A model generated the notes under the pieces. The model did not search any database. It worked only from the letters and a program-made list of their open reading frames with translations, and was not told the DNA's origin. This document shows positions 13,621 through 25,595 of a DNA stretch of 37,852 nucleotides, piece after piece. Both the position numbers and the translations under genes were made by a program. This DNA comes from Nitrobacter sp. 62-13 (GTDB lineage: Bacteria > Pseudomonadota > Alphaproteobacteria > Rhizobiales > Xanthobacteraceae), in NCBI RefSeq assembly GCF_001896955.1, contig NZ_MKRN01000179.1, forward strand, positions 3,381 to 41,232. Reading direction: 5' to 3'. How positions within the stretch are numbered: the first letter of the stretch is position 1; every line of letters starts with the position of its first letter.

Positions 13621-14580
13621 ATGAAAATTACCCTGATCTTCCGGCCGTTTTGCCGCCTCGCTATATTCGCAGTTCTTCTGTCGGCGTGCCTGAACTCGCC
13701 GCTGCACGCGCAGTCCGTGGCAGTCATGGTCAATGGCGAGCCGATCACCACTTTCGATATCGAACAGCGCAGCCGCCTGATTCAAATATCCACGCACAAA
13801 ACCCCGCCCCGGCAGCAGGTGATCGACGAGTTGATCGATGAAAAGGTGAAGATCAAGGAAGCCAAGAAATACGGCGTCAACCCGACGTCATCGGACATCG
13901 ATCAGGCCTACGCCAGCATGGGCGCGCGAATGCGCATGTCGCCCGACCAGTTGACGAAATCGCTCGCCTCGCAAGGGGTCCGCCCGGACACGATCAAGGC
14001 GCGCCTGAAGGCCGACCTTGTCTGGGGAAGCCTCGTGCGCGGCCGCTTCAAGGACAGCCTTCTCGTCAGCGACCGCGATGTCAACGATGCCCTGAAGGCC
14101 AGCGGCGGCGACCAATCGAAAACCGAAGGGTTCGAATATCAGATGCGTCCCGTCGTATTGATCGTTCCGCGCGGCGCAGCCGCTTCCGTGATGGAGGCGC
14201 GTCGCAAGGAGGCGGATTCGTTGCGTGAACGCATTCAATCCTGCGCGGATGCGGCTCACATTTTCAAGGCGATGCGGAACGCCACGATACGCGATACCGT
14301 GGTCAAGACGTCGGCCGATCTGCCGCCGCCTCTCCGGGATCTGCTCGACAAAACGCCCGTGGGACATCTGACCCCGCCGGAGATCACGCGGCAGGGCGTG
14401 GAAATGGTGGCTGTCTGCGAAAAGAAAGTGACCAGCGTGGATACTCCGAAGAAAAAGGAGATCCGCGAAAAGATGTTCGCCGCCAAGTATGAGAAGAAAT
14501 CCAAGGATTATCTGGACGATATTCGGAGATCCGCGATGATCGAGTATCGTCAGGGTGGCCCGGGGAAAAAAGGGGAATAA
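13621..14580 (+). CDS. surA: periplasmic peptidyl-prolyl isomerase/chaperone, SurA-like
   Basis: A 319-residue SurA-type chaperone for outer membrane proteins. The signal sequence (about 1-30, RLAIFAVLLSACLNSPLHA) contains LLSAC, a lipobox-like site at C23, as well as a normal signal peptidase I site near 30, so it could be lipidated or soluble. The SurA N-terminal chaperone domain follows: VAVMVNGEPITTFDIEQR, then IDELIDEKVKIKEAKKYG. A parvulin-like region (about 160-270) is short and weak, in place of the two clear parvulin domains of E. coli SurA (428 residues). Its place between lptD and pdxA matches E. coli (lptD-surA-pdxA-rsmA) and supports the call. It has no obvious Shine-Dalgarno. 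Confidence 0.88.
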   Translation: MKITLIFRPFCRLAIFAVLLSACLNSPLHAQSVAVMVNGEPITTFDIEQRSRLIQISTHKTPPRQQVIDELIDEKVKIKEAKKYGVNPTSSDIDQAYASMGARMRMSPDQLTKSLASQGVRPDTIKARLKADLVWGSLVRGRFKDSLLVSDRDVNDALKASGGDQSKTEGFEYQMRPVVLIVPRGAAASVMEARRKEADSLRERIQSCADAAHIFKAMRNATIRDTVVKTSADLPPPLRDLLDKTPVGHLTPPEITRQGVEMVAVCEKKVTSVDTPKKKEIREKMFAAKYEKKSKDYLDDIRRSAMIEYRQGGPGKKGE

Positions 14581-14600: not shown

Positions 14601-14675
14601 CTACCGGCGAGAACACGCCCCAACATTGTGAGCGGCGGCATATGCTGTCGGAGGCCGCGCTGGAGCGACCACGTT

Positions 14676-15680
14676 GTGAAGCCTCTTGCACTAACCCTTG
14701 GCGAGCCGGCCGGCATCGGACCTGATATCGCGATCGCAGCGTGGCTCCGCCGCAAGAGCGATGCCGTTCCGCCGTTCTATCTTCTTGGCGACGAGGCATT
14801 CATCACGGCGCGCGCCAGGCTGCTCGGTATCGATATTCCCCTGGCGGACGCTGCTGACGGCGATGTCTCCCGGATCTTCGCAGAAGCGCTTCCGGTCATT
14901 GCTACCGGCCATCCGGCAACCGCGCGGCCCGGTCACCCCGACGACAACAGCGCGCCGGCGGCCATCGGGTCCATCCGTCAGGCGGTCAACGACGTCGTTG
15001 CCGGACGCGCAGCCGCGATCGTCACCAATCCCATCGCCAAGAGCGTGCTCTACCGTGCGGGCTTCACTCATCCCGGCCACACCGAGTTTCTCGCCGAACT
15101 GGCGGCGAGCGGCGGCAAGCCGCGGCAACCGGTGATGTTGCTGTGGTCGTCCGACCTTGCGGTGGTGCCCGTTACGATTCATCTTCCATTGCGCGAGGCG
15201 ATCGCGACGCTGTCGAGCCCGATGATCGTGGATACCGTCCATATCGTCGTTTCCGATCTGCAATCACGCTTCGGAATCGCCCGGCCCCGCATAGCGGTAT
15301 CCGGACTGAACCCTCACGCCGGAGAGGACGGTTCGCTCGGAACCGAAGATCAGACGATCGTCGCTCCCGCCGTCGCAACCTTGCGCGCGGAGGGGATCGA
15401 CATCAGGGGTCCGCTTCCCGCCGACACCATGTTCCATGAAGCGGCGCGACGGACCTACGACTGCGCAATCTGCATGTACCACGATCAGGCGCTGATCCCG
15501 GTCAAGACGCTGGCTTTCGATCGCGCGGTCAACGTCACGCTGGGGCTGCCGTTCATCCGGACATCGCCCGACCACGGCACCGCATTCGACATCGCGGGCA
15601 CCGGACGCGCCGATCCGTCTAGCCTGATCGCGTCGCTGCGCCTGGCCGCACGAATGGCGGACTCCACGCATTCGGCATGA
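14676..15680 (+). CDS. pdxA: 4-hydroxythreonine-4-phosphate dehydrogenase
   Basis: PdxA oxidises 4-phosphohydroxy-L-threonine with NAD in the DXP-dependent route to pyridoxal 5'-phosphate. The 334-residue protein opens with [17 protein letters not shown], the standard PdxA N-terminus. It carries the metal-binding His region [24 protein letters not shown], and [16 protein letters not shown], then [16 protein letters not shown]. All diagnostic motifs are present and the length matches the family (about 330). GTG 14676 is chosen because it gives the canonical N-terminus; GGAG lies about ten bases upstream. Its stop overlaps the rsmA start (ATGA, 15677-15680). Confidence 0.95.
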
Positions 15681-16312
15681 GCACGATCGACGATCTCCCT
15701 CCGCTGCGCGACGTCATCAAACGTCATGCGCTGTCGGCGCGCAAATCCCTGGGACAAAACTTCCTGCTCGATCTGAACCTCACGGCACGGATCGCGCGAG
15801 CTGCCGGCCAACTCGAAGATGCGACCGTCGTCGAGGTCGGCCCTGGTCCCGGCGGGTTGACCCGTGCGCTGCTTGCCGCGGGCGCCAAACATGTGATCGC
15901 CATCGAGCGTGACGAGCGTGCGGTCGGGGCGCTGGAAGAAATCTCGGACCGCTATCCCGGGCGTCTCACGATCGTCAACGCGGATGCGATGCAATTCGAC
16001 CCGCGTCCGCTGCTCGGAACCACGCGCGCGAAAATCGTCGCCAACCTGCCCTATAACATCGCAACAGCGCTTCTGATCGGCTGGCTGAGCGTCGAGCCAT
16101 GGCCCCCCTGGTATGACGCGATGGTGCTGATGTTCCAGCGCGAAGTCGCCGAGCGGATCGTCGCCCGCGAAAACGAGGAAGCATATGGCCGTCTCGGCGT
16201 GCTGTCGAACTGGCGCGCTGAGACCAAAATCCTGTTCGACATCGCGCCTGCGGCTTTCGTGCCGCAGCCTCAAGTCACCTCTTCCGTCGTTCGCCTCGTG
16301 CCTCGCGACTAG
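15677..16312 (+). CDS. rsmA: 16S rRNA dimethyladenosine transferase RsmA (KsgA), ends at premature amber stop
   Basis: RsmA dimethylates two adjacent adenines in helix 45 of 16S rRNA, using S-adenosylmethionine. The Rossmann methyltransferase domain is intact: [10 protein letters not shown] at the N-terminus, the SAM motif [11 protein letters not shown] (about 54-64), the acidic ribose-binding residue in [17 protein letters not shown], and the catalytic NLPY motif. Codon 212 (16310-16312) is TAG, so translation should stop after 211 residues. In the same frame the remaining 71 codons of the C-terminal domain follow undamaged (see next feature). Normal length is about 270-285. A CAG-to-TAG change is the simplest origin. 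Consequences could be loss of function, partial activity or stop-codon readthrough; a base-call error is also possible. Known from E. coli: loss of KsgA is viable and confers kasugamycin resistance. Confidence 0.9.
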
Positions 16313-16528
16313 CCAGAGGATTGTGAGCGCCGGTTGCTCGAACAGGTCGCCGCCGCCGCCTTCGGACAACGCCGCAAGATGCTGCGGCAAAGTCTGAAAT
16401 CGCTGCCCGCCGATCCGGCGTTGTTGACCGCTGCCGCCGGCATCGACCCGACCCGGCGAGCCGAGACCGTTCCGATATCCGGCTTTGCCGCAATGGCACG
16501 CGAATTGGCGGCACAGCGTCGAGCGTAA
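16313..16528 (+). pseudogene. rsmA: C-terminal domain of RsmA, cut off by in-frame TAG
   Basis: This is the continuation of the rsmA reading frame after the TAG at 16310-16312, with no frame change. It encodes [19 protein letters not shown] followed by [12 protein letters not shown], then [15 protein letters not shown] and a normal C-terminus ending at a TAA (16526-16528). The [13 protein letters not shown] and RAE motifs are hallmarks of the KsgA C-terminal helical domain that docks on the 30S platform. A TTG at 16334 could in principle restart translation, but no good ribosome binding site is evident. The lack of further damage suggests the stop is very recent, read through, or a sequencing error. 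Confidence 0.85.
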
Positions 16529-16536
16529 TCCTCCAA

Positions 16537-18051
16537 TCAGGATTTGGTCGAAGCCGGCGCCACTACGATGCGATATGTCAGCGGTCGTGACGAATAGCCA
16601 AGATATGTTCTGAAAAATGTTACGTTCGTCGTGCTACCAGCGTTTCCGGCAAACGACTTGGCCGCGACCTCGCAAGAGGCGTCGTCCTCGCTGCAGACCA
16701 TGACCCGTGCCGCAATGGGTGGTGCACTTCTTTCATCGGGAGGATCGCTTAACGGCCGGGCTCCAGGAAGATAGTAAAATAAGCCTTGAACGGCCTGCTC
16801 GCTACCGGCAATCAACACAGCTGGCGAACTGGCGAGACGCATGATTTCCTCGGCGAGCTGACGATAATGCGCGTTATGAGCGGTGCGCCGCGGGTTGAGA
16901 TGCTCACGCGCCACTAGCGGCGAAGCAACAACAGCCAGAAGCGATATCGCAAGCGCCGTCACGCAGCTGCGAGCGGCAGCGATGACCGTCACATTGAGCC
17001 GCGGCGAGCCGAACAATACCACGGGTAGCAGCGCCCAATTCGGAAACGTCCATATCGAAGTCAGACGATGAGACCACGCAAGATTGGCCACCGCCGGCAA
17101 TATCAACGGGACGACGAGCAGAAGCAGAGCCTGACGACGCCCTGGATCGCTTGGCCAGATCGTGTCCCGCATCGTCGCTCGGTCCGGCCTTAGTATCGTA
17201 AAGAAGATAAGGGGTACGACGATATAGCCTGCGGTGCCGACGAGATAGTATGCGGAAGTCTTGAACGCTGTACCGAATGGAACTGAAACCAGCACGCTCC
17301 TCGCCATGAAATTTTCCGTGGCGTGATTATGTTCGGTGAGCAACCAATGGATGTGTGGCGCTATCACTCCCAATGCCGCGGCGGCCATTATGAATGGCGT
17401 GCCGGATCGCCAAAACCGCCTGACGTCCTCTCCGGCAATTGACGCGACGGCGATGCCCGCGATTAGATAGACCCCCCAATATTTTCCCAGGAACGTCAGG
17501 CCGGCGAATGCTCCCGCGAGAACCGCATCCGTCCACCTCACGTCGCGCCGCGCGCGGAGATAGAACAACACAGCCGCTGACCAGAACGGCATCATCACCG
17601 TGTTGGCATTGAATCGTGCCGCCAGGAACGTATAGAACGGGACGAGGATCAGCGCCGTGAGACCGACAAGCGCGCGCTCCTTGTTTAAATGATCCCGCAT
17701 GACCGTCCAGGTAACGGCCAGCGTCACGACGATATTAACGGTCGCCAGAAGATACGCCACCCAATCAGCGCGTGGAAATATGGAAAACCACGCGCGGAAA
17801 ATCCACGCCGTCATCGGCGGATGCTTGTAGCCGAACGCAAAGGTCTGCGCCCAGACCGACTCCTCGCTGAGATCGTAGTGAATGTCGACGGTCGCGTTCG
17901 CGACCGAGAAATACAGCATCCACAGCACGGCATAGACCGCCAGCGTGATGCGGAACAGCCGACCGCTGCTATTCCGCCGCACGAAATCGGCGACAGCCTG
18001 CACCAGGCGTCCATCCCAGATCGCGATAAGCCGGACACTCGTGACTGTCAT
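16537..18051 (-). CDS. GT-C (PMT/ArnT-type, family 39-like) membrane glycosyltransferase
   Basis: A 504-residue polytopic protein with about 10-12 membrane segments. The first extracytoplasmic loop contains ANATVDIHYDLSEESVWAQ and then YKHPPMTAWIFR, resembling the acidic catalytic loop and the H/YPPL-type motif of lipid-linked-sugar transferases (PMT_2 domain). A soluble periplasmic C-terminal domain (about 400-504) follows. These enzymes transfer sugars from polyprenyl phosphate to lipid A, proteins or cell wall; the acceptor cannot be told from sequence. I choose ATG 18051 because the 40 upstream codons lack hydrophobic or conserved content. It is divergent from the alcohol dehydrogenase (99-base gap) and converges on rsmA. 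By eye its DNA is somewhat more AT-rich than its neighbours, hinting at a later arrival. Confidence 0.82.
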   Translation of the reverse strand: MTVTSVRLIAIWDGRLVQAVADFVRRNSSGRLFRITLAVYAVLWMLYFSVANATVDIHYDLSEESVWAQTFAFGYKHPPMTAWIFRAWFSIFPRADWVAYLLATVNIVVTLAVTWTVMRDHLNKERALVGLTALILVPFYTFLAARFNANTVMMPFWSAAVLFYLRARRDVRWTDAVLAGAFAGLTFLGKYWGVYLIAGIAVASIAGEDVRRFWRSGTPFIMAAAALGVIAPHIHWLLTEHNHATENFMARSVLVSVPFGTAFKTSAYYLVGTAGYIVVPLIFFTILRPDRATMRDTIWPSDPGRRQALLLLVVPLILPAVANLAWSHRLTSIWTFPNWALLPVVLFGSPRLNVTVIAAARSCVTALAISLLAVVASPLVAREHLNPRRTAHNAHYRQLAEEIMRLASSPAVLIAGSEQAVQGLFYYLPGARPLSDPPDERSAPPIAARVMVCSEDDASCEVAAKSFAGNAGSTTNVTFFRTYLGYSSRPLTYRIVVAPASTKS

Positions 18052-18150
18052 CGCCAACCCTGACTCATTCGAGCACGGCGCGATGAGCCCCGGCAGTTGC
18101 AAGAAACGGCGTGATATAATGGTACGCGCTCTTTCGAGAGGAGGCCTACT

Positions 18151-19209
18151 ATGCCGGCGATGAAACGCCAATCACTCGTCAGGTTCGATGCGCCGCTGTG
18201 CGAAACGATGATCGATACCCCGACGCCGCAGGGCCGCGAGGTTCTGGTACGGGTCGAGCGCTGTGGCCTCTGCCATTCCGACCTGCATCTCCAGGACGGC
18301 TACATGGACCTCGGCAACGGCAAACGGCTGGATACGACCCGCGGCATGACGCTGCCCTTCACCCTCGGCCACGAGATTGCGGGGGTTGTCGACGAAGTCG
18401 GACCGGAAGCTCCGAGAGACATCGTGGGACGGAAGAAAGCGGTGTTCCCCTGGATCGGCTGCGGCGAGTGCCGGGATTGCCTGGCCGGAGACGAAAATCT
18501 CTGCGCCAGGAACCGTTTTCTCGGCGTTTCGATCGACGGCGGCTTCGCCACCCATGTGCTGGTGCCGGACGCAAAATATCTGCTCGACTACGATCCGTTG
18601 CCGGTCAACTTGGCGGCGACGCTGATGTGCTCCGGCATCACCGCCTATGGCGCGCTGAAGCGCCTGGTCGACCGGCCGCGCCGGCGCAACCTGCTGCTGA
18701 TCGGATTGGGCGGCGTCGGCATGATGGGGCTTGCCTTCGCGCAGGCCATGTTCAAGCAGAAGATATCCGTTGCAGATGTGAGTCCGGCAGCGCGAGCGAC
18801 TGCGCTCGCGAACGGCGCAGCGGTCGCCTACGACCCGTCGGAAGCCGACATCGCCAGGCGCATCGTCAAGGAGCACGACGGAGGCTTCGACGCTGTCGTC
18901 GATTTCGCCGGCAACGAGAAATCGATGAGCTTCGCGGTCTCAACCGTCGCCCGCGGTGGAAAGATCGTTGTCTCTGGGCTGATGGGAGGCAATTTCAACC
19001 TGCCGATCGTGCAGTGGATCTACAAGCGCATGACCATCGAAGGCTTTATGGTCGGCACGCTCGCGGAGGCACAGGAGCTGATGGCGCTGGCGCGATCCGG
19101 CAAGATCAAGCCCACCCCGATGCGGGAAGAGCCGATGGAAGACGCTCAGAAATGGATGGAGCAGTTGCGGGCCGGCAAGGTGGTCGGCCGCGTCCTGTTC
19201 AAGAACTGA
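18151..19209 (+). CDS. zinc-dependent alcohol dehydrogenase (MDR family)
   Basis: A 352-residue medium-chain NAD(P)-dependent dehydrogenase. Catalytic zinc ligands are C41 (CGLCHSD), H74/E75 (GHE) and the cysteine in TLMCSGITAYGAL. The structural zinc site is C104, C107, C110 and C118 (CGECRDCLAGDENLC). The Rossmann glycine motif is GLGGVGMMG. Both zinc sites look complete, so an active alcohol/aldehyde dehydrogenase is likely; the substrate is unknown. The start ATG has a strong Shine-Dalgarno (GAGGAGG, about 7 bases). The nearby glycosyltransferase and proline-rich protein do not suggest a pathway. Confidence 0.93.
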   Translation: MPAMKRQSLVRFDAPLCETMIDTPTPQGREVLVRVERCGLCHSDLHLQDGYMDLGNGKRLDTTRGMTLPFTLGHEIAGVVDEVGPEAPRDIVGRKKAVFPWIGCGECRDCLAGDENLCARNRFLGVSIDGGFATHVLVPDAKYLLDYDPLPVNLAATLMCSGITAYGALKRLVDRPRRRNLLLIGLGGVGMMGLAFAQAMFKQKISVADVSPAARATALANGAAVAYDPSEADIARRIVKEHDGGFDAVVDFAGNEKSMSFAVSTVARGGKIVVSGLMGGNFNLPIVQWIYKRMTIEGFMVGTLAEAQELMALARSGKIKPTPMREEPMEDAQKWMEQLRAGKVVGRVLFKN

Positions 19210-25103: not shown

Positions 25104-25196
25104 TGAAAAACTCCAGCCTCCTTGCCAGCCATAAGGAAAAGCCGGTGGACCGTTCGGCCACGGTCCGTCCGGCTTCATCAAGACCGCGCGAGAGCG

Positions 25197-25436
25197 TCAG
25201 CTTTTCGCGTTCTTCTCGAGGAACTTGGTGGCATCGCCAACGGTCAGAATCGTCTCTGCCGCGTCGTCGGGAATTTCGCAGCCAAACTCTTCCTCGAAGG
25301 CCATCACGAGTTCGACAGTATCGAGACTGTCGGCGCCGAGATCGTCGATGAAGCTGGCATTATCGACAACTTTCTCGGGCTCTACGCCAAGGTGCTCGAC
25401 CACGATCTTCTTAACCCGCTCGCCAATCTCGCTCAT
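25197..25436 (-). CDS. acpP: acyl carrier protein
   Basis: A 79-residue acidic four-helix carrier protein that holds growing acyl chains on a 4'-phosphopantetheine arm. The attachment serine is S37 in the motif [10 protein letters not shown]. Length and the ending [12 protein letters not shown] are typical of alphaproteobacterial AcpP. It is flanked by fabG upstream and fabF downstream. The 273-base gap before it probably holds its own promoter, in keeping with its high expression in bacteria. Confidence 0.98.
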
Positions 25437-25595
25437 TATTAAACCTCGCGTTGTTCAATTGGACCCGACTGCAAAACGAGTCATTGTGGAGCGTTAACTC
25501 GTCACGTTTCTGTCGCTATCGCAGTCGTGTAGAATTCGGTCTGTTCCGCCTTGAGCGGGTGCGGACCGGCAAACGACGGCGGCCTCCGCACCGCC

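Follow-up and report, generated by a model that had tools for sequence, protein, structure and literature searches.

The window, a 37,852-nucleotide stretch from the draft genome of Nitrobacter sp. 62-13, contains an rsmA (ksgA) gene whose reading frame is interrupted by an in-frame TAG at 16310-16312 on the forward strand. Frame reading and alignments to solved chains place this codon at the junction of the catalytic and C-terminal parts of the predicted protein. The stop is tentatively explained as a young single-base nonsense allele that is real in the sequenced cells, a reading that comes close to an even chance. An error in the consensus sequence is a nearly equal explanation, and it counts against the allele that the evidence for it comes from one gapped draft assembly.

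The rsmA frame and its interruption

The rsmA frame opens with ATG at 15677, and 211 sense codons, the last of them encoding VRLVPRD, precede the internal TAG. Beyond the stop, 71 in-frame codons lead to a TAA at 16526-16528 without a frameshift, and reading of the frame confirmed the initial annotation on this point. The upstream part (15677-16312, forward strand, including the TAG) encodes the SAM-binding catalytic domain, and the corresponding motifs were found in it as a ten-residue segment and NLPYNIAT, which are taken here to be the GxGxG-type and NLPY motifs. The Pfam profile RrnaAD (PF00398) matched the part ahead of the stop with 143.6 bits (profile positions 3-192 of 263) and the whole frame with 164.1 bits (positions 3-262 of 263), one TAG lying within the latter match.

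The undamaged continuation (16313-16528, forward strand, 71 codons and TAA) corresponds to the C-terminal domain. When searched minus its first codon, this tail had no Pfam match at E 0.001. It matched the C-terminal end of the solved RsmA chains 3tpz, 7afo, 1qyr and 8eyt (E about 4e-6) and aligned over its length with 12 relatives, and is therefore not a chance open frame. The identification of the gene as rsmA, already made in the initial annotation, was thus upheld both by the profile match over the whole frame and by the solved chains.

The part ahead of the stop matched 39 distinct solved sequences at E 0.001, Erm and mitochondrial relatives among them, and the best two matches spanned query residues 5-209 and 8-210. 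In chain 7afo_Y, presumably E. coli RsmA, residue 197 pairs with residue 210 of the window's protein and the match to the tail starts at residue 207, indicating that the stop falls between the two RsmA domains. A further solved chain named RsmA, 6ifv_A (215 residues), was matched up to query residue 211; judged from its size, it is presumably the catalytic domain alone. Under the standard code the catalytic and C-terminal domains are not in one chain here, being separated by the TAG.

The genome contains one copy of rsmA, each half of the gene giving a single match, and on this ground a second intact copy elsewhere was rejected. Three further PF00398 matches in the genome are confined to profile positions 11-87 and probably represent other SAM methyltransferases. 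Upstream of rsmA on the same strand are an intact gene for a SurA-like chaperone (13621-14580; PF09312) and an intact pdxA (14673-15680; PF04166, 342.3 bits), which overlaps the rsmA start by four bases. The gene pdxA is adjacent to rsmA also in genomes G004, G002, G006 and G008.

Distribution of the stop and constraint on the gene

Comparison with relatives, a check named in the initial annotation, showed that the stop is not common to them: the site was open in all eight other same-genus genomes. A wider comparison used 140 genomes from the order, an even draw from a larger group, with one genome per species. PF00398 was matched at E 1e-25 in 137 of these, and a stop inside the match was seen only in the window's genome (0/8 same-genus and 0/136 other matched genomes of the order). 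The 136 include at least four partial matches (G056, G068, G081 and G148), and in G068 and G148 the match stops before or at the position of the window's stop. Three genomes fell short of this threshold: in G052 the gene is divided between two contigs; G038 and G060 gave weak hits only, and rsmA may be missing or unassembled there.

In addition, 109 other rsmA loci were collected, four genes being present twice; the named relatives were mostly Bradyrhizobium, Afipia and other Hyphomicrobiales. A motif test took 108 rsmA frames, including that of the window, and eight were found without the motif, namely the window's frame, that of locus L084, truncated by the contig end, and six full-length frames with a variant motif. 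Two loci additional to the motif-tested frames (L031 and L032) were intact. No stop ahead of the C-terminal domain was found in the 108 other loci that could be examined to that point, L084 being the exception. In genome G051 one TGA lies within the protein-level span and none within the PF00398 profile match. In G018 (contig C23) and G028 (contig C75) the rsmA match came in two pieces, with no stop and with equal open-frame length reported, a pattern that points to inserted sequence within the protein. Among the papers listed on truncated or stop-bearing ksgA/rsmA, on the C-terminal domain of the enzyme and on assembly stops, no title or opening of an abstract reported this rsmA allele.

The residue at the stop column was K, N, S or M in the eight other same-genus genomes; four additional loci had A or E. 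G006 and G002, the nearest two relatives by silent distance, both have K. Glutamine was absent there from all 12 aligned relatives; a broader count by motif found it in 3 of 87 other frames, drawn from a pool in which four genes occur twice. The proposal of the initial annotation that the TAG arose from CAG by a C-to-T change is thus unsupported.

The dN/dS ratio against G006 was 0.088 ahead of the stop (211 codons) and 0.139 behind it (65 codons), and the corresponding values against G002 were 0.081 and 0.079. A comparison of G002 with G006, leaving the window out, gave 0.085 and 0.145. Judged from these substitution ratios, selective constraint is similar on either side of the stop. The signs of a decaying pseudogene, more frameshifts and relaxed constraint, were looked for and not seen: there is no frameshift, and constraint behind the stop is like that ahead of it.

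Changes on the branch of the window's own genome were counted by parsimony with G002 as outgroup. Behind the stop there were no clear and one ambiguous amino-acid changes, compared with seven clear and two ambiguous silent changes; ahead of it there were six clear and three ambiguous amino-acid changes and 19 clear and 13 ambiguous silent changes. Neutral change along the whole branch predicts about 19-25 amino-acid changes behind the stop, and a simple Poisson estimate from the parsimony counts sets the 95% upper limit for the fraction of the branch spent without constraint at 0.02-0.21 over the settings used. The stop is therefore very young, or absent from the organism, or does not terminate translation, and this evidence of age agrees equally well with a sequence error. 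The absence of other decay, from which the initial annotation had argued, was borne out; recent mutation, readthrough and base-call error were the right set of readings to offer, and the argument from age is now quantified.

Assembly quality, UAG decoding and alternative explanations

The genome (G000) is a draft of 3.54 Mb in 215 contigs with 89.77% completeness, and is probably a metagenome bin. The window lies in its contig C179 and contains no N; the same base in the C179 record is that of the window's own source assembly and not an independent read. An 80-kb stretch of contig C197 has four runs of N, one of them within a gene. This run of 17 bases (C197, 18775-18791) lies inside a large frame (828 aa in G002) ahead of a release-factor-like gene, probably prfB, and it and the three others look like scaffold gaps, although in principle they could be sequence left out of the record. 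The gene concerned is split (C197, 16679-19118) and contains the N run, and the split need not be a frameshift.

Both stretches were searched for other broken genes by comparison with syntenic relatives. A check of all frames of at least 90 codons returned many antisense frames with stops, which were left uncounted. A second check was restricted to frames that do not overlap, span 100 codons or more and have a third-position GC of 0.58 or higher; query frames with a match of at least 60% identity were kept and the others dropped. Matches in the window were obtained for 25 of 33 query frames with G004 and for 27 of 31 with G002, of which 22 and 24, respectively, were full length without a stop. 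In the C197 stretch, 26 of 63 (G004) and 42 of 59 (G002) query frames were matched, with 22 and 34 full length without a stop. The remaining matched frames were partial, antisense, affected by start-site differences or by the N run, rsmA itself, or one of two stop-bearing frames (C197, 9152-9754, and window 25183-25572) that were kept out of the gene count. The other stop-bearing alignments were judged to be antisense frames or shadows of longer frames, or to have their stops in the first 2%, reflecting start-site differences. Apart from those two frames, which were left out of the count, neither the window nor the 80 kb of C197 yielded a further gene established as broken. Among the matches listed for ABC transporter domains, part of the genome's 52 own matches, there was likewise no stop, which is a weak indication.

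These observations bear on the reading that the consensus is wrong, through a false base call or the assembly of mixed strains, and that the organism has a sense codon and a whole gene. The chance of this is put somewhat below even. The fragmented and probably metagenomic draft, the N runs typical of a gapped scaffold, the isolation of the stop and the full constraint on the tail all favor such an error; against it, no positive sign of one was found, there being no N in the window and no frameshift within rsmA. The undamaged and constrained tail would also be expected if UAG were read through usefully often, by a programmed or a tolerated mechanism, to produce full-length RsmA, and bacterial genes that keep in-frame stops under apparent purifying selection have been reported in general terms in the available text of PMC7918605. 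No relative shows the stop, however, and TAG is the normal terminator of 6 of the 23 window genes examined; one of the 23 is a glycosyltransferase-type gene private to this genome, described below. Release factor 1 (prfA) is also present, with 486.9 bits against a curated cut-off of 423.25. ARAGORN assigned a CTA anticodon to none of the 43 tRNA genes in the genome, 41 of which carry other anticodons and two of which have a two-letter reading, although with the genome about 90% complete a suppressor could be missed. The latter two are tRNA-like genes on the 7.6-kb contig C104 (L163, 90-163 and 269-341), arranged divergently and reported by ARAGORN with two-letter anticodons and no amino acid. 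Since ordinary genes end in TAG, the genome encodes RF1 and the tRNA genes found include no assigned reader of UAG, recoding of UAG in this genome is unlikely, and a change of the genetic code for TAG was rejected. Readthrough, put forward in the initial annotation, stands weakened by the same evidence and is considered improbable.

Two further explanations are less likely still. In one, the cell makes the catalytic part and also a C-terminal part from a start of its own, and the two assemble into a two-piece enzyme. An in-frame TTG at 16334, with AGAGGA 13 bases ahead, and an ATG at 16379 could serve as starts for the separate downstream product that the initial annotation held to be possible in theory; the start codon is weak and the spacing poor, however. 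Such a product could arise only from this TTG or from later starts, and it would lack the catalytic domain. Moreover, none of the 108 other loci that could be examined has a stop between the two parts, L084 being cut short by its contig end, and we know of no precedent for a two-piece RsmA. This explanation is regarded as exceedingly unlikely. The other, given just as little weight, is incipient true loss of the gene tied to an insertion directly behind it. Genomes G006, G002 and G008, all of the same genus, align with the window up to 16509-16515 and again from 18150-18166, and a segment of about 1.64 kb (16516-18150, edges approximate) that begins in the last, variable codons of rsmA is missing at the same place in all three. 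It carries a PMT_2 glycosyltransferase-type gene on the reverse strand, convergent with rsmA (16537-18171; PF13231, 107.6 bits; putative start at the first TTG of the open frame). This is followed on the forward strand by a zinc-type alcohol dehydrogenase-like gene (18151-19209; PF08240, PF00107), which comes directly after rsmA in the three genomes; in G004 a different sequence follows rsmA and the dehydrogenase gene is not adjacent. Relatives of the PMT_2 gene at E 1e-20 were found in none of the eight other same-genus genomes and in 10 of 32 genomes outside the genus, and a second copy, 68% identical, is present in the window's genome. The inserted segment has a GC content of 0.585 compared with 0.621 for the window, and the longest word common to 55-base stretches at its two ends is seven bases. 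Against a role in gene loss, the insertion alters only the last few, unconserved residues of RsmA, and the stop lies about 200 bases upstream in sequence that aligns unbroken.

Predicted consequences and comparison with known systems

According to the young nonsense allele, the favored explanation, a single-base change would have hit the genome's only rsmA copy very recently. RF1 would end translation at the UAG and yield a 211-residue product that keeps the catalytic domain and lacks the C-terminal domain, which would normally assist binding to the 30S subunit. The shortened product would be expected to fail in the dimethylation of both adenosines (A1518 and A1519) of 16S rRNA helix 45, and cells carrying this RsmA-null allele would be predicted to show slower late maturation of the 30S subunit and higher kasugamycin tolerance. 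We infer a real base, efficient termination and a null phenotype. A 16S match for helix 45 was not found in the genome, a weak negative result, as a control of the same search was positive in 9 of 14 genomes only. A real null allele would be unusual, given that rsmA was free of such a stop in each of the other 136 genomes with a match.

A bolder form of the allele explanation is very improbable. It holds that the stop is both real and kept, either in a lineage that lives without helix-45 dimethylation or in one where occasional UAG readthrough supplies RsmA and acts as a condition-dependent switch for kasugamycin tolerance and 30S quality control.

If the stop is real, it would be a naturally occurring null mutation in an rRNA-modifying enzyme that ranks among the most conserved, without parallel in the other matched genomes of the order sample, and would offer a natural experiment on the function of the RsmA C-terminal domain. 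If it is an error, it is a reminder that a lone stop in a draft genome should be backed by reads before biological claims are made.

The gene resembles that of RsmA/KsgA, the 16S rRNA (adenine1518-N6/adenine1519-N6)-dimethyltransferase, in that both parts match, one copy is present and pdxA is adjacent, and is unlike it in the TAG that cuts the frame between the domains. The in-frame stops with possible readthrough described in the available text of PMC7918605 share with it a lone TAG with purifying selection on either side. In the example given there, however, the stop is common to several genomes, whereas the window's stop is private to one draft genome.

The closest parallel is the ksgAE9 allele of Chlamydia trachomatis L2. 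As stated in the accessible part of PMC2807437, kasugamycin passage selected a KsgA shortened from 277 to 213 residues, which failed to make an E. coli ksgA mutant sensitive to the drug again; an E. coli ksgA deletion was 16 times more resistant than its parent. The two truncations are nearly identical in length and both lose the C-terminal part, so that by analogy the window's 211-residue product should be equally inactive; without this domain the enzyme has probably lost its activity. According to the same account (PMC2807437), the mutation in ksgAE9 was an insertion of two bases that appeared during passage with kasugamycin, and its function was tested, whereas the window's allele carries a stop and its effect is predicted from sequence.
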